Positions 9,496 through 28,462 of a DNA stretch of 30,724 nt are shown one piece after another (positions within the stretch are counted from its first letter, which is position 1; each line of letters starts with the position of its first letter). The stretch is taken from the IMG/VR virus record IMGVR_UViG_3300030090_003002, positions 1-30,724 of that record. One strand, given 5' to 3'. Source of the stretch: a virus. The position numbers and the translations under genes are program-made. A model generated the notes under the pieces. That model saw only the letters and a program-made list of their open reading frames with translations. It ran no database searches and was not told the origin of the DNA.

Positions 9496-9893
9496 AGTTA
9501 CGCCTTAATGTTCAAATTGCACTAAATGGTGTGCAAAAAAAACATAGTTTGCCTTATAAATTTCCTTATAAGGCGATGAATCCTATGACAACAAAGGAAC
9601 AAACATTTGAAAGCCAAGAAGATGTTTATTTAGTTTTAGAACAATGTTACGATAAGTGTATAGAAAAGGGATATAATCGGTTGGGAGAAGCCTTATATAA
9701 ACAATCACTATTTATAGCTAACGATGTTATGTTTTTAGATAGTAAGTGTCAAGATAAGATAAAATCATATAAATTTTGTAAAAAATTTAATTGTCCACCA
9801 TATCCATCCTTACAAGAAACACCAATAGAAACCATAGATTCGTTTAATATAATAGAACAAGAAATTGAACAATATACTAACAAGGAAAAATAA
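9483..9893 (+). CDS. Tail assembly chaperone, frameshift extension (gpT-like)
   Basis: This is the -1-frame part read after slippage at 9477-9483. Joined to the first 86 codons it gives a product of about 222 residues; the extension itself is 136 residues. It begins SEEIKLRLNVQIALNG and is mainly helical, with several Cys residues. It has no SD of its own, and the only early starts in frame are poor (GTG 9531), so an independent gene is unlikely. In lambda the long form recruits the tape measure to the tail tip and binds the tube protein. Its stop overlaps the tape-measure ATG. Confidence 0.8.
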   Translation, partial: SEEIKLRLNVQIALNGVQKKHSLPYKFPYKAMNPMTTKEQTFESQEDVYLVLEQCYDKCIEKGYNRLGEALYKQSLFIANDVMFLDSKCQDKIKSYKFCKKFNCPPYPSLQETPIETIDSFNIIEQEIEQYTNKEK

Positions 9894-11581
9894 TGTCAAA
9901 TAGTAATACTTTTATAATAAAAGCGTCCACAATTGGATTTGGGAAAGCTGAAAAAAATGTAAAAGGTTTATCAAGCTCAATGAAAAAATTTGCAGCAGGG
10001 TTAATAAGTGTAAGTGCTGCGTATAAAGGACTCGGAGTAGCATTTGATTCTATAAAATTAGCAGGTAGATTAGAAGGTGTCGAACAAGCTTTTAACAATC
10101 TTCGTAAAGAAGCAGGTTTTTCGATTAATACATTTAATAAATTAGATAAAGCAGTAAATGGGACGGTTGATAGGGTTACCTTAATGACACAAGCTAACAA
10201 TGCTATGTTACTTGGAATTGCTGAATCTGATGATCAAATGGCAGAACTATTTGACACAGCACAAAGATTGGCAAGGGCAGTAGGGCAAGATGCTGCATTT
10301 GGTATAGAAAGTTTTGTAACAGGGTTAGGTAGGCAATCAAGAGAGATGCTTGATAATTTGGGACTTATGGTTTCTGCTGAAGATGCACAAAAAAAATATG
10401 CAGATGCGTTAGGAAAGTCAGTAAGTAAGCTAACGGATCAAGAAAAAAAACAAGCGTTTGTAAACGAAGCGATGTCACAAGCAGATATACTTGTAAGTAG
10501 TATGGGAATAGAAACAGAAACTACAGCAGACAAGCTAAACAAACTAAATACATCTGTAACAAATTTTAAGATAGCAGTTGGAGATGCACTTATTGAAAGT
10601 GGTGCTATAGATATGTTTAATAGTTTTACTGCAGCTTTATCAGAATATGCAGATAAAATGCGAGAAGCTGATGAAAATACTGTAGAATATACAGAAGATC
10701 AAAACCAATTAGCACAATTAATAGCTATGGATAAAATGGCAATAGCTGAATTAAATGAACAATTAGACGCATTTAATCTATTAAGAGATGGTCAAGTTGA
10801 TAGGAATGCAAGTATCATTGAACAAAGAAAGCAAGAAAACGAAATTTTGAAAGCAACTTTTTTAGTTAATGAATTAATGAATGAAACTGGTCAAAATGAA
10901 GTTGAATTACGTGAAAGATTGGAAAGCCTTATACAATCATATACTGCAACTATGAATAGTAATACAGAAGAACTTATAAATAGTAGAGCTGAATCAAGGG
11001 GAATGAACGAAGAAACTGAAAAAACTATAGAATTAACTAAAGAGTCAAATAAGCAAGAAAAAACAAAGTTGCAGCTAATGCTTGACCAAATAAAAGCAGG
11101 TGCAAAAAAAATAACATTTGAAAAAGATGCAGCAAAATTATCAAAAGGTATTGGCAAAGCAGCGATTAAGTTTGGTAAAATGAACGCTATGGAAGAATGG
11201 CAAACAACGCTTTCTATGGCACTTGTTAATGCAGCAGCAGCTATAATAAAAGCAGGTAAAACTGGTGGATTTAAGGGTGGGTTGTTAATGGCAGCACAGA
11301 TGGCACCACAAGTTTCAGCTATTTATGCAAATAAACCTGAAATGCAAGGTCAAACTGGATTTGAGGGCGTAATTGATGAGCCAACACAATTTACTGTTGG
11401 TGAGGGTGGAGCAGCAGAATATGTATCTGTAACACCTCTTGAAGGCGTAAACAACGCAGGTGGACAAGGAGTAAATATAAATATAAGTGGGAATGTAATG
11501 TCGGATCAGTTTGTAGAAGAAGAACTTGCCGAGCGAATACAAGAAGCAGTTAGAAAAGGCGTAGATTTTGGGATGTCATGA
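9893..11581 (+). CDS. Tape measure protein
   Basis: A 562-residue, mostly helical protein. Diagnostic segments are REMLDNLGLMVSAEDA, followed by a YADALGK and LTDQEKKQAFVNEAM stretch, as in many siphovirus tape measures. A Gly/Ala-rich, membrane-active-looking stretch (GFKGGLLMAAQMAPQVSAIY) lies at about residues 463-483. The usual ratio of about 1.5 angstrom per residue predicts a tail of roughly 85 nm, which is short to medium. It starts on the chaperone stop (TAATG) and overlaps the hub gene by ATGA. Confidence 0.88.
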   Translation: MSNSNTFIIKASTIGFGKAEKNVKGLSSSMKKFAAGLISVSAAYKGLGVAFDSIKLAGRLEGVEQAFNNLRKEAGFSINTFNKLDKAVNGTVDRVTLMTQANNAMLLGIAESDDQMAELFDTAQRLARAVGQDAAFGIESFVTGLGRQSREMLDNLGLMVSAEDAQKKYADALGKSVSKLTDQEKKQAFVNEAMSQADILVSSMGIETETTADKLNKLNTSVTNFKIAVGDALIESGAIDMFNSFTAALSEYADKMREADENTVEYTEDQNQLAQLIAMDKMAIAELNEQLDAFNLLRDGQVDRNASIIEQRKQENEILKATFLVNELMNETGQNEVELRERLESLIQSYTATMNSNTEELINSRAESRGMNEETEKTIELTKESNKQEKTKLQLMLDQIKAGAKKITFEKDAAKLSKGIGKAAIKFGKMNAMEEWQTTLSMALVNAAAAIIKAGKTGGFKGGLLMAAQMAPQVSAIYANKPEMQGQTGFEGVIDEPTQFTVGEGGAAEYVSVTPLEGVNNAGGQGVNINISGNVMSDQFVEEELAERIQEAVRKGVDFGMS

Positions 11582-14500
11582 TAAAATTAAATAGTACAAT
11601 AAGAAATGATATAAAAGCAGGTGTGCAAAACTTTGAATATTTAATTAATATTAATGATGAAGTTTATGTAGCTACAAGAAAGCAAATGTTAAGAAAAACA
11701 CCTACTATTTCTGATTTGCGATTATCAATTGCATCAGGCAAAGGCGAAGATTTGTATTTTGAAGATGCAAATATGAGAATTACAGATTTAAGCGAGAAAA
11801 TAGACCTAAAAACAAAGAAAACACAATTAGGTAATAGTACGATAACTTTTGCTAATTTTAGTGTTTATAAGGGTGGAAAAGAAAAAAAGTTTTCTGATGA
11901 ATTTAGTGAGTTAGTTGGTAAAAATTTGAAAATATATTTCAAAACACAATCTTGCAAAACATTATCAGAATGTTTGCTTGTTGCACAACTTAAAATTACA
12001 AGAATAAAGCACGATGATAAAAAAATAACAATATCAGCAAATGATCTTAGCATTGATTCTACATACAAAGAAATACCTGACAACAATTATGTATTATTAA
12101 AAGATATAAACACATTTGACCATTATTCATTAAAGCCAGTACCAACTTTATATGGACATTTAGAAAATGCTCCTGCTATTGTTTATAAAGAAACACAGGG
12201 TGATACATATAAAATAAAACTTATACCTGATACATCGTATTTTGATGACACAGAAATTGGTGGAATATTGCCTTTTAGTAATGATGGTGAAAATGGTATA
12301 GTTTTTAATGATGGAGATGGTGAGTTTGGTGGCACATTAACAAATAAATTTTTACAATTAGCAAGACAAAATGTTTTAAAAATTGGTTTAGGCGACCATT
12401 TATGTGATGTACCTTGTTTGTCATATCAACAAACAAGAGAAAATATTACAGATACACAACACGAGGACAAATTTAAATTACATACAAAGGCACAATGGTT
12501 TTCTGATCAAAATCATATTCTGTTAAACTTTGATGTTGGTGAAGAAACAGACGAATCTTTAGAAGAAGCATCTTTGTGGTGTGCAATAAATCAAAAACCA
12601 TTAACACAAGAAACACTAACATATCAAATACGTGCAAAAGAAAGTACTGGTACATCAGGTGGCTACGAAGGCTTTTATGATGGAGCATATAATAATATTA
12701 CTATGATGAGTGTGATGGATGAACATAATCCACCAAATGATGATGCTGATAGGAGCGTTTATAAGGTTGGGGTACAAAAATTTAAATTTGCACCATTTTC
12801 AGGATTTGATTTGAACGATAAATTAGACGAAGATGAAAAAGAGCTATATAAAACTGATGCACATTTTTTAGGTAGCCTTAAAGTTACGCAATTTCTTAAT
12901 TCAGCAAATGATTCACATAAATCTACTTTAATTCATTCAGTTTTCTCGCCACCAATACATAAAAATGATGCAGTTGATGAAGATAGTTATCGTGATAATG
13001 TAGGGTATCCTGCATCTTTAACAAACGAAATGAATGGTGGGACAGTAGATGATTTTAATTTTAATGATAAATTTGCAAGAACAACGATAAAATTGCAAGG
13101 TGTTGCTGATGGATATGATGAAGGTTTTAATTTAGAGTTTGTAAATTATAGAAGTTCATTTACATCATCTTTATTTGGTTATCGTGATAAAAATTCATTT
13201 GTAAGTAGATATAGAGATGGTGCAGAATTTAAATATCCAACTATGGATGCAACTATATTGAGCTTGTATTATTTTGTTGATGATAATACTGGTGGAACAC
13301 TTGGCACAGCGCCAAATACAAGAGTAAACATAACGCCTGAGTGGCGTGATGTAGAAATGCGTAAAGTATGGTCAAACAAACAAATATTTGAAAAAGATTT
13401 TTTTGTTAATGCAAAAGGGAAGCTTGGTGATGTTGAGCCTAATATTAAAGATGTAAGTGGAAATATAATAATAAAACACGAGGGAGCAGATATACCATCT
13501 TTTAGTGAAAATAATGCTTGGAAAGATAACATACATTTTACAGAATTTTATAAACTTTTAACAAACTTAGAATTTAAAACTAAAACAATAGATGGAGAAG
13601 TGTATCAAATAATGTTAGCTTCTTATAACCCATCAACAGATAAATATAATTTTTTATTTGATGTAGAAATTGAGAATTTACATTTTGTAGAAGAAGATTT
13701 GCCAACAGGGATATTTCTTAATAATATTTTATATCCGAGTGGCACAACAATATCACATAGAACGGGATGGATTTTCAAATTTTACGGAAAATATTTTGGC
13801 GACCAATACAATATAAATTATTCAGGATTTAGGCGTGGATCAAATGGCGTAAGATTGGTTTATGGTAAAAAAATATACGAAAATACTTTTGTGTCTGATA
13901 TAGAATTTGTAGAAGATGAAGTGTTTAACGATTTTAATGAGAATAATTATTATGAGTTTCCTTTTGAAGGACAAGAGTTTTCATCAGATGATGAACTTGG
14001 ATATACAAGTGTATTTTGGGAAGCAAATGCACAACAATCAAAAAAATTAATTGAAAAACCACACGAAATAATACAAGACTTGCTATCGCAGCAAGATGCT
14101 GTAATAAATTTTGACGATGAAAAAATAAATAAAATATATGAACAAGCACCTGAGTACAAACTTGCATTTTCTATAAATGAACGAAAAAACACAAGTGAAA
14201 TTATACAAAAAATTTGTCAGCAATCGCCAATATATTATAGATATAGAGGTAGAGATAGAAAAATTGTAGTTGATTTTTTTAAAAACAAATATGATGATAG
14301 TGATTTAAGTGGTGTTATAGAAACACAAAGACTTTTAAACTTTAGCTTTGATAGAACAAAAATAGAAGATGCTTGTATGGGTGGTGTTATTGTTAATTAT
14401 GCTTATAATTATTCAACAGAAAAATTTGATAAAAGAACAGGTAAAAGAGATACAGGTGTATTTAGAACAGATTATGCACAATACTATGGTATAGATGATT

Positions 14501-15081
14501 TAAACGGGTACGAGGTAGAAATAGATGCACCATATATTCAAGACAAAGGCACAGCAGAATTTTTTAGAGATTATTATTTTGAGTTAAACAAGCAACAAAA
14601 ATTAACGTGCAGGTTTGAGCTTCCAATGTCAGATGGAATACAGTATGAAGTTGGCGACATTATAAGGTTTGATGCAAATCCGAATAAAACACAACCTTTT
14701 GGTATAGATTTAACTACAAATAATCAAATAATAGACCAAGAATCAACACCATACTTTTTTATAACAAAAGTACAAAAATCATTATTTAGGGTAAAAATAG
14801 AGTGCGTACAGACACACGACCTAAAATATGACCTACCACAAGTTTCATTACTTGGAGATATAAATTTAGATGGTCAAGTGACATCTGAGGGTTATAATAA
14901 TGATTTGTTTTTATTGTTAGATATGGTCGGTTCTACTGGACAAGATATTACTTATGACGAATTGCTTGAACAAGGATACACTATAGAACAAATAGTAAAT
15001 GCTGATATGAATCAAGATGGGGTAATTAATCAAATAGATTTAATATTGTTTATAGAACAATTTGGTGGATCAGTATCATAA
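11578..15081 (+). CDS. Large tail hub/baseplate protein with C-terminal dockerin-like module
   Basis: At 1167 residues this is the largest product. It follows the tape measure, where distal tail and hub proteins are encoded. The C-terminal half contains YEVGDIIRFDANPN and FFITKVQKSLFRVKIECVQT, typical of the final strands of tail hub proteins. After about residue 1090 comes a module with two EF-hand-type calcium loops: DINLDGQV starting at Asp1094, with an insertion in the loop, and DMNQDGVINQID starting at Asp1143, a full DxNxDGxIxxxD loop. The loops are joined by helices, as in type I dockerins. Dockerins bind cohesins; no cohesin is seen here. The central part, about 340-900, is beta-rich and unrecognised. 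Confidence 0.75.
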   Translation: MIKLNSTIRNDIKAGVQNFEYLININDEVYVATRKQMLRKTPTISDLRLSIASGKGEDLYFEDANMRITDLSEKIDLKTKKTQLGNSTITFANFSVYKGGKEKKFSDEFSELVGKNLKIYFKTQSCKTLSECLLVAQLKITRIKHDDKKITISANDLSIDSTYKEIPDNNYVLLKDINTFDHYSLKPVPTLYGHLENAPAIVYKETQGDTYKIKLIPDTSYFDDTEIGGILPFSNDGENGIVFNDGDGEFGGTLTNKFLQLARQNVLKIGLGDHLCDVPCLSYQQTRENITDTQHEDKFKLHTKAQWFSDQNHILLNFDVGEETDESLEEASLWCAINQKPLTQETLTYQIRAKESTGTSGGYEGFYDGAYNNITMMSVMDEHNPPNDDADRSVYKVGVQKFKFAPFSGFDLNDKLDEDEKELYKTDAHFLGSLKVTQFLNSANDSHKSTLIHSVFSPPIHKNDAVDEDSYRDNVGYPASLTNEMNGGTVDDFNFNDKFARTTIKLQGVADGYDEGFNLEFVNYRSSFTSSLFGYRDKNSFVSRYRDGAEFKYPTMDATILSLYYFVDDNTGGTLGTAPNTRVNITPEWRDVEMRKVWSNKQIFEKDFFVNAKGKLGDVEPNIKDVSGNIIIKHEGADIPSFSENNAWKDNIHFTEFYKLLTNLEFKTKTIDGEVYQIMLASYNPSTDKYNFLFDVEIENLHFVEEDLPTGIFLNNILYPSGTTISHRTGWIFKFYGKYFGDQYNINYSGFRRGSNGVRLVYGKKIYENTFVSDIEFVEDEVFNDFNENNYYEFPFEGQEFSSDDELGYTSVFWEANAQQSKKLIEKPHEIIQDLLSQQDAVINFDDEKINKIYEQAPEYKLAFSINERKNTSEIIQKICQQSPIYYRYRGRDRKIVVDFFKNKYDDSDLSGVIETQRLLNFSFDRTKIEDACMGGVIVNYAYNYSTEKFDKRTGKRDTGVFRTDYAQYYGIDDLNGYEVEIDAPYIQDKGTAEFFRDYYFELNKQQKLTCRFELPMSDGIQYEVGDIIRFDANPNKTQPFGIDLTTNNQIIDQESTPYFFITKVQKSLFRVKIECVQTHDLKYDLPQVSLLGDINLDGQVTSEGYNNDLFLLLDMVGSTGQDITYDELLEQGYTIEQIVNADMNQDGVINQIDLILFIEQFGGSVS

Positions 15082-15473
15082 TGAATACAAAAATGAGCAT
15101 ACTACAAGATTTCGATAAAGTAATTATAAATAATTTTGAGCCTTTTCAATATATGATAATTAATTTTAATGGCTCGTTTCAAGGCGATATGGTAGCAAAT
15201 GGTAATTTATTGGTAAAAAAAGACCAGTTGTTTATTTATGGAGTAAATCTTGATAGCACTAATGTATTGTTTACATACGATGGCAATTTTAGTATAAAAA
15301 GAGTATATGCTTATATAGACAATATAAATCATTATGTAATAACAAGAAAAAGCTCAGATAATGTAAATACAATTAAATCTACTTGGAATTTATCTACATC
15401 AAAATATACAGATTTTTATCGCACAAACAAGGGTAAGCCATACAGGCAAACAATTTTAAGAAAGAGGAAATAG
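15081..15473 (+). CDS. Small distal tail protein, unassigned
   Basis: A 130-residue protein overlapping the hub stop by one base. The middle is beta-rich (FQYMIINFNGSFQGDMVANG; YDGNFSIKRVYAYIDNI) and the tail is basic, ending YRQTILRKRK. I do not recognise the family. Place and tight coupling suggest it assembles with the hub protein. No enzymatic motif or signal peptide is visible. Confidence 0.55.
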   Translation: MNTKMSILQDFDKVIINNFEPFQYMIINFNGSFQGDMVANGNLLVKKDQLFIYGVNLDSTNVLFTYDGNFSIKRVYAYIDNINHYVITRKSSDNVNTIKSTWNLSTSKYTDFYRTNKGKPYRQTILRKRK

Positions 15474-16466
15474 ATGGCAGGAACAGTAGCAAGACCAAAG
15501 GTATATATAGATTATATAAGTTATTTTAGAGCAACAGGACTTAGTGTGCAATCTCAATCTAATAATATAGTTGAAGATACATCAGATTTATTACATTATA
15601 ACCCCAGTAATACTAAAGAATTTAATCCTATTAATCCTGAAAACACATTAAAATTTAATATACAATTAGGAGATGGTACAGGCGAATCACAAAAACTTGT
15701 AAAGTCTATAAATTTTGGTGCTTGGCTAAATCACAACGCAGAAGATTTAGGTGCAGACTATCTAACAATAAATAGCTTGGATACATCAAACTTTACGGCA
15801 ACACTTAATACAACATCAATAAATAATACAGCTAACAAAAATAATTTTAGACTACAATCACTTGATAGTTCTTTATTTCCAACAAATGCCTATGGTGTTT
15901 CATTTGAAGCTGCAATATCTAACTACACTTCATCATTCAAATTAGGATCAGTAATTGCAGGTCGTTCGTTTACATTTCCACACAATGCAAATTTATCTAT
16001 GAACATAAACAATGAAACCAACATTAGAAAAACAAGAACATTAGGTGGATCAGATATAGTAGATATAAACTATTACAGACAACCTTTATGGAATGGATAC
16101 CCACCATTTGTAGCAACTAATGAGCCATCATTAAGTGCAACATCATCTATAGGTAGAAGGTCGTGGGCGTTGACATTTTCATTTTTAACACAAGATAGTA
16201 CATTCCCACAAGATATGGGTGAAGGCTTTATGTTTGATAATAATATAACAGATGATGGCGTAAATACGTGGACTAACTGGACTACAGAAAATATAACCTC
16301 GCATTTTATGACATTAACTCTCAATGGTCAACTTCCATTTATGTTTCAGCCTGATGACACAAAAAATGTGTATGCGTGGTGCAGACTAAAATCAAATACA
16401 TTTTCTGTGCAACAATCAGCACCTAATTTATATACTTCAAAAATGACTTTTGAAGAAGTTTGGTAG
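15474..16466 (+). CDS. Distal tail or receptor-facing protein, unassigned
   Basis: A 330-residue beta-rich protein, the last gene before the late terminator. It starts MAGTVARPKVYIDYISYF, with SD AGAGGA immediately upstream. It has many Asn/Ser/Thr and paired aromatic motifs (TWTNWTTENI, YAWCRLK) near the C-terminus and ends SKMTFEEVW. This composition fits a tail-tip component. No domain is recognised with confidence. Confidence 0.55.
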   Translation: MAGTVARPKVYIDYISYFRATGLSVQSQSNNIVEDTSDLLHYNPSNTKEFNPINPENTLKFNIQLGDGTGESQKLVKSINFGAWLNHNAEDLGADYLTINSLDTSNFTATLNTTSINNTANKNNFRLQSLDSSLFPTNAYGVSFEAAISNYTSSFKLGSVIAGRSFTFPHNANLSMNINNETNIRKTRTLGGSDIVDINYYRQPLWNGYPPFVATNEPSLSATSSIGRRSWALTFSFLTQDSTFPQDMGEGFMFDNNITDDGVNTWTNWTTENITSHFMTLTLNGQLPFMFQPDDTKNVYAWCRLKSNTFSVQQSAPNLYTSKMTFEEVW

Positions 16467-27496: not shown

Positions 27497-28462
27497 ATGA
27501 ACAATTTAATTAACAATATACAGGGATGGGTGCATAATGGTTATGCAGGTAACCATCTTATGGGTATAACTGATACAGATGTTGCTGTAGGACAATCAGC
27601 AGGAGTAGTTACTGCATCAGCTATCGTACAATTCAACAAAGCATCAGTTACACCAAGTCTAATTACAATGCAAGAAGCTCCAAGTGGCTCAATCAACGTA
27701 AACTTTCCCGAGTGGTCAAAAGTAGCAGCATCATCAGTTACTGAAAACTCAGCAGGTGCAGAAGGTGCAGAAACATCAGTAACAGATTTAACTTCTGTTT
27801 CTAATTCAGTAGAAGTGCTAAGAAAATCTATTACAGCACAAGTTACTGACCTTGTTGCACATGGCTCAAGCGATGCTTACTTAGTACAGGCAGGTCAAGT
27901 GCTTGGAAACGCAGTAGCAGCTAAGTTTGACAAAGATGTATGTGCAGCATTTGATAACTTTTCAACAGCAAAAGGTACAGCAACTGATGGCTTAAAGTTT
28001 TTAGACATCATGGATGCTCTTGCATCACTTGAAGCTAACGATGCTCCACGACCTTATAGTGCAGTTCTACATCCACTACAAATGTATGGCTCTTTTGGAT
28101 TATCAAATGAATTTGGTATTTCAGCAGAACAAGGAAGCAACGGTGCATTTAATGGTGGACACGCTGCTGCTGTAGGCAATCAGTTTATGGGTGCAGGGTT
28201 TGTAACAAGTATCGCAGGTATTAACTTTTACACATCGCCTCAAGTGTTAGCGTCATCTGACCAACACAAAGGTGGAATATTTGCAAGTACAGCTATTGGA
28301 GCAGGTGTTGTAAATATGAGTGGTGGAAGTTTCATAGAAGTTAATTCTGAAAGAAACGAACTTGGTGCTTCAACTATCTTAGCTTGTAATGGCTACTATG
28401 CAATTACAGAGTTAGTTGATTTGCACGGTGTTGAAATTAACACAGAAACAAGTACAGCTTAA
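27497..28462 (+). CDS. Major capsid protein (HK97 fold)
   Basis: A 321-residue protein behind the scaffold with a good SD (GGTAGG). The sequence is rich in Ala/Gly/Ser and has an HK97-like layout: an N-terminal arm, a helix with TAQVTDLVAHGSSDAYLVQA (spine-helix region), AVLHPLQMYGSF, and a C-terminal part (GGIFASTAIGAGVVNMSGGS then NELGASTILACNGY). Capsid proteins of this size with this motif order occur in many siphoviruses. Its hairpin-ended transcript fits high expression. Confidence 0.88.
   Translation: MNNLINNIQGWVHNGYAGNHLMGITDTDVAVGQSAGVVTASAIVQFNKASVTPSLITMQEAPSGSINVNFPEWSKVAASSVTENSAGAEGAETSVTDLTSVSNSVEVLRKSITAQVTDLVAHGSSDAYLVQAGQVLGNAVAAKFDKDVCAAFDNFSTAKGTATDGLKFLDIMDALASLEANDAPRPYSAVLHPLQMYGSFGLSNEFGISAEQGSNGAFNGGHAAAVGNQFMGAGFVTSIAGINFYTSPQVLASSDQHKGGIFASTAIGAGVVNMSGGSFIEVNSERNELGASTILACNGYYAITELVDLHGVEINTETSTA

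Follow-up and report, generated by a model that had tools for sequence, protein, structure and literature searches.

The window considered here is a stretch of 30,724 nucleotides that comes from an uncultured, probably marine, virus of bacteria, and our interest in it centres on four adjoining genes on the plus strand. The first, at 9893 to 11581, encodes the tape-measure protein (phrog_3779, E 2.2e-6) and lies directly upstream of the gene for a 1167-residue protein, at 11578 to 15081, predicted to be the central tail hub. The stop codon of this hub gene shares one base with the start of the gene that follows, in the sequence TAATG (15079 to 15083), and that gene (15081 to 15473) encodes a small beta protein of 130 residues; all homologous loci that extend far enough likewise have a gene for a small protein in this place. 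The tail-tip cluster has a further conserved gene, its third (15474 to 16466; 330 residues), which comes after the small gene in those related loci that reach so far; its product, with no match among PDB sequences, is possibly an attachment point, a distal tail protein or a receptor-binding protein. Further along the window, positions 27497 to 28462 encode a major capsid protein that is a distant relative (26–29%) of those of HTVC026P-type Pelagibacter phages and Phage DSL-LC06, and paralogous LamG-domain proteins are found at opposite ends of the contig (2 to 1111 and 29479 to 30525), with MFPSRRATIGGD near the start of both.

That the long gene encodes a tail hub was part of the original prediction, and its predicted fold, together with its position after the tape measure, bears this out. 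AlphaFold, given 34 homologues, modelled the C-terminal third with confidence (pLDDT about 80–90 over residues about 830–1080), and the best Foldseek matches of the model were the tail tip of T5 (7zqp_b, E 1.9e-9), lambda J (8k35/8iyk, E 2.1e-7), Sf11, HFTV1 and the hub of a GTA (6tba, E 2.6e-5). Comparison of the hub with PHROGs returned no match, and the Phage-tail_3 family (PF13550) gives a weak match just N-terminal to the dockerin described below, in distant members only. Taken together, the modelling supports the assignment as a siphovirus central tail hub. Neither the hub, nor its dockerin tail, nor a canonical dockerin from a relative found a match among INPHARED phages by tblastn, and a pattern scan of GTDB genomes returned no copy of the hub.

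A divergent dockerin on the hub

Codons for residues 1091 to 1167 of the hub, with the stop codon, occupy 14848 to 15081 of the window, and it is here that a dockerin-like calcium module had been proposed to end the protein, a proposal that has stood up well. When the tail is scanned alone, the Pfam Dockerin_1 family (PF00404) covers residues 1093–1160 with 29.1 bits (E 1.1e-6), over the gathering score of 22.9 bits that serves as the cut-off, and falls under it, at 19.1 bits (E 0.0015), in a scan of the full-length hub; a search within the virus's own record gives E 1.4e-5, and the closest PDB sequence to the tail is the cellulosomal GH48 dockerin 2y3n_B (E 6.9e-6). The two loops start where they were said to, D1094 opening DINLDGQV and D1143 opening the complete 12-residue DMNQDGVINQID, and these are the only two places in the 1167 residues at which DxNxDG occurs. 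Two such motifs turned up in 67 of 200,000 shuffles of the 87-residue tail and, with the Pfam score and the conservation in relatives, this count led us to reject a chance origin. The hub ends in a real dockerin, albeit a divergent one.

The module (residues 1091–1167, 14848 to 15078) is termed divergent, and dockerin type I-like, because it departs from a near-symmetric tandem repeat with short spacing in two respects. Its first calcium-type loop (D1094–D1109, 14857 to 14904) has 16 residues in the window's subgroup, four above the 12-residue form, with the ligand residues kept, and its loop starts lie 49 residues apart, compared with about 29–38 in most relatives. The long spacing is due to an insert at residues 1119–1142 (14932 to 15003), with two short helices predicted at 1126–1131 and 1136–1140, which is also present in the related loci L003, L004 and L010. 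The second calcium-type loop (residues 1143–1154, 15004 to 15039) is canonical. AlphaFold places helices behind the two loops, at 1109–1118 and 1152–1162, at low confidence (pLDDT about 50–66).

A search of viral contigs recovered 50 related hub loci, with identity down to about 26%; of the 45 viral records in which they lie, 38 matched PF00404, with 37 over the cut-off. Among the misses, five contigs end early (L013, L016, L032, L046 and L049), L010 carries a degenerate copy and L015 represents a real absence. Most relatives have a textbook loop pair, for example GDVNEDGIVNVLDIV...NADMNGDGGINILDIV, and in an alignment of 22 phage dockerins the ligand positions D1, N3, D5 and D12 of both loops vary little or not at all, and each loop opens and closes with Asp in all 22. 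It might of course be supposed that the loops simply stabilise the C-terminus of the hub with calcium, as an end cap or a relic that has no cohesin-type partner and whose first loop is decaying; the extra residues of loop 1 and the wide loop spacing in the window's subgroup, the failure of PF00404 on L010 and the loss of the module in L015 would each fit such an idea. However, the calcium-ligand positions do not change even between very divergent hubs, in which the remainder is variable, and the module is present in nearly all relatives, so that we consider this explanation very improbable.

Other domains lie C-terminal to the dockerin in L011, L017 and L019, and the hubs of L019 (7989 to 13388) and L202 (5818 to 11244) run to about 1800 residues with four to five dockerin-like repeats. 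Because domains or extra dockerins lie beyond it in these four loci, the dockerin is better described as attached to the hub core than as a mere C-terminal end. The hub of L015 (6678 to 10369) stops 5 residues past the core and is still accompanied by the small beta gene, with no dockerin anywhere in its 28-kb record.

The small beta gene and its bacterial counterpart

A cohesin-like sequence pattern had been noticed in the small protein ahead of any structure work. The AlphaFold model is all-beta over residues 6–90, at a pLDDT of about 90, and its best Foldseek match in the PDB is the non-cellulosomal cohesin 2xdh (probability 0.99, E 5e-3, TM 0.32); cohesins make up six of its ten best matches, although TM values are only about 0.3. 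Pfam cohesin (PF00963) was found in none of this record, the 45 related records and the 29 members of the small-protein family, and a comparison of the small-protein and cohesin profiles gave a probability of 4.6%, which is not significant, though above 20 shuffles. Searches of the small protein against Pfam, PHROGs and PDB sequences turned up nothing convincing. We tentatively describe the predicted fold as cohesin-like, the label being a cautious one because the TM is low and neither Pfam nor the profile comparison lends it support. The beta fold of the small gene is also contained in a viral protein of 1389 residues, BFVD A0A516LNX3, which might be a fusion of a hub with the small module.

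Since the first relatives were partly found via a dockerin peptide, which could bias the search, loci were re-selected through the small gene alone. In all 47 loci selected in this way the hub gene upstream encodes a dockerin and ends within about 30 bases of the small-gene start, and in none are the two fused; L202, added via the hub search, fits the same arrangement. The dockerin-bearing loci analysed number 58, or 33 clusters at 90% identity. The one exception is L015, where the small gene persists and the dockerin is missing; the small protein may therefore be seated independently of the dockerin. Distances among dockerins and among small proteins show no co-variation once the hub background is allowed for (partial r 0.06, p 0.21).

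The small protein also has relatives among cellular proteins. Its profile matches 28 of 245 Ca. Neomarinimicrobiota genomes, with up to 12 copies per genome and a best E of 2.6e-16, and in all 15 host proteins fetched the matching module lies immediately C-terminal to a dockerin. A type IX secretion (T9SS) sorting domain follows the module in eight of nine proteins scanned with Pfam, the ninth ending at the edge of its locus, whereas this domain (Por_Secre_tail) is absent from both the phage hub and the small protein. The N-terminal parts of the host proteins vary, and include a C25-peptidase domain, a multihaem cytochrome, a dioxygenase and LamG, and no Pfam or NCBIfam model covers the beta module itself. 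In L148–L162 it is a stretch of about 85 residues between dockerin and type IX tail (for example, residues 501–587 of L149:206-2245).

When the search is reversed, a profile of the host module retrieves the phage small proteins with E values down to 1e-22. The window's small protein belongs to the weakest-scoring group, yet 15081 to 15473 is the best open reading frame in the window (E 0.002, the next being 2.1), and a profile made from the four sequences of the window's subgroup, the most divergent one, is not enough on its own for a convincing match to the host modules. Outside this phylum, the small-protein module has no credible match in 396 Bacteroidota (one spurious match concerned the unstructured tail), and is absent from 133 genomes of the Zixibacteria phylum and from nine other dockerin-bearing genomes. 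Among cellular dockerins, the one closest to the phage type also comes from Neomarinimicrobiota (61%). Both halves of the phage pair are thus homologous to the dockerin and beta module of these bacteria and come in the order found there, although in the phage they belong to two separate genes.

A proposed split docking cassette and its possible targets

The original prediction offered two uses for the dockerin, one of which was to join another virion protein, and for this we can now name a concrete candidate, namely the product of 15081 to 15473, whose homologues come straight after dockerins in Neomarinimicrobiota proteins. One organism joins the modules in a single chain and another encodes them side by side in separate genes, which suggests, without proving it, that they form a physical pair; even modules that are fused in a genome may make no contact. 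Such a joint could in principle be entirely internal to the virion, with the dockerin binding the small protein or the third gene product as a connector between hub and distal tail that makes no contact with the host. The strict adjacency and co-conservation of hub and small gene, the module order common to phage and host cassette and the cohesin-like Foldseek matches are all consistent with this idea, but the beta domains or extra dockerins that follow the dockerin in L011, L017, L019 and L202 are better suited to a variable, exposed tip, and L015 manages with no dockerin at all. We think it a tentative possibility, and somewhat unlikely.

Our preferred reading, to which we would attach a probability of about one half, is that the hub dockerin is one half of a two-part docking cassette whose other half is the product of 15081 to 15473, the whole being homologous to the host cassette. 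On the simplest reading, it would be a host surface cassette copied by the phage and presented at the tail tip, probably for adsorption. Computation establishes the dockerin, the hub fold, the conserved neighbouring gene, the homology of its product to the host module and the common module order; four further points are proposed, which we give in order of falling likelihood. The phages would infect Neomarinimicrobiota or close relatives, from which the cassette would have been taken; the small protein would sit on the hub dockerin at the tail tip, rejoining in trans what is a single polypeptide in the host; the dockerin would fold around two calcium ions, calcium dependence being expected from established dockerin biochemistry; and the exposed cassette would dock the tail to the partner that the cassette has in the host, plausibly a surface cohesin, in which case adsorption would be calcium-dependent.

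The host assignment is based on module homology, and not on CRISPR or on a prophage with this arrangement. Dockerin similarity alone was rejected as a weak host marker, rumen Bacteroidales and Ruminococcus matching too, and the hub profile is also weak in this respect, matching 2 of 396 Bacteroidota as well as 4 of 245 Neomarinimicrobiota, although the latter score much better. Hub relatives do occur in Neomarinimicrobiota metagenome-assembled genomes (L142, L144 and L147), where they are probably prophages, and there the protein stops at the core and has no dockerin; in L142 and L144 the next gene is LamG-like.

The second use originally foreseen was docking to a host cohesin, and a search for cohesin domains gave an answer that differs between the two parties: they are found over the cut-off in 136 of 245 Neomarinimicrobiota genomes, while Pfam cohesin is missing from the contig and the 45 related ones. 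Several of the Neomarinimicrobiota cohesins belong to predicted lipoproteins, either of 172–180 residues with a single cohesin (L132, L169, L173, L183, L184 and L190) or with PKD-like repeats and a terminal cohesin (L170, L171 and L174). A host surface cohesin is thus a possible target of the dockerin, and the short single-cohesin lipoproteins are plausible candidate receptors. One could go further and propose that the dockerin binds such a surface cohesin directly and by itself, the small protein being an unrelated accessory of the hub, and the abundance of host cohesins, some of them on short predicted lipoproteins, the absence of Pfam cohesin from all 46 viral records and the separation of the two parts in L015 all speak in favour of this. 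It leaves unexplained, however, why the small gene should be homologous to the very module that comes after host dockerins, and we judge it improbable.

Returning to the two-part cassette, the far-reaching proposition that a widespread, probably marine, siphovirus lineage adsorbs to Ca. Neomarinimicrobiota (SAR406) by means of a stolen host cassette, divided between the dockerin on the hub and a separate cohesin-like subunit, that binds host surface cohesins in a calcium-dependent manner is one that we regard as doubtful at present. A conserved dockerin on the hub, with a partner gene copied from exported host proteins, would mean that adsorption by the phages of this uncultured marine phylum has a definite mechanism open to testing; it would also supply a sequence marker with which such phages could be matched to their hosts, and protein engineers would gain a new natural pair. 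The analysis also exposes an unnamed module common to many type IX secreted proteins.

Comparison with known systems

Cohesin–dockerin pairs are among the strongest non-covalent protein links known, and are found in cellulosomes and on some bacterial and archaeal surfaces. The module described here resembles type I dockerins (PF00404) in its two DxNxDG loops, behind each of which a helix is predicted at low confidence, in its C-terminal position and in the profile match of the isolated tail, and its phage relatives have canonical tandem repeats. It differs in being carried by a phage tail hub, in the four extra residues of loop 1 and the 49-residue distance between loops, and in that no cohesin partner was found by sequence in the virus. 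The hub itself is like those of the T5 tail tip, lambda gpJ and the GTA in following the tape-measure gene and in its predicted core fold; to our knowledge, the hubs solved so far terminate in a fibre or a spike domain, whereas here a dockerin comes after the core.

The closest parallel is with the Neomarinimicrobiota proteins that carry dockerin, beta module and T9SS tail, since both modules are homologous and their order is identical; the bacterial cassette is a single polypeptide with a T9SS tail, whereas the phage uses two adjacent genes and has no such tail. The X-module–dockerin dyads of cellulosomes also pair a dockerin with an adjacent beta domain, but their X module precedes the dockerin and does so in cis, whereas the phage beta module follows it in trans. 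Dockerin-related annotations have appeared in phages before: gene 40 of phage VvAW1 shows BLAST similarity to dockerins and, in the accessible part of the report, is not described as a tail protein (PMC3558961), and Gp02 of phage vB_EcoS_HSE2 structurally resembles what is called a dockerin carbohydrate-binding module (PMC5967307). As far as the accessible text of these sources goes, neither phage is said to have a dockerin on its hub together with a gene for a partner, and the open literature searched contains no precedent for a dockerin on a hub. Dockerins and tail hubs are thus of known kinds, and it is their combination, together with a split cassette of putative host origin, that is new as far as we have seen.
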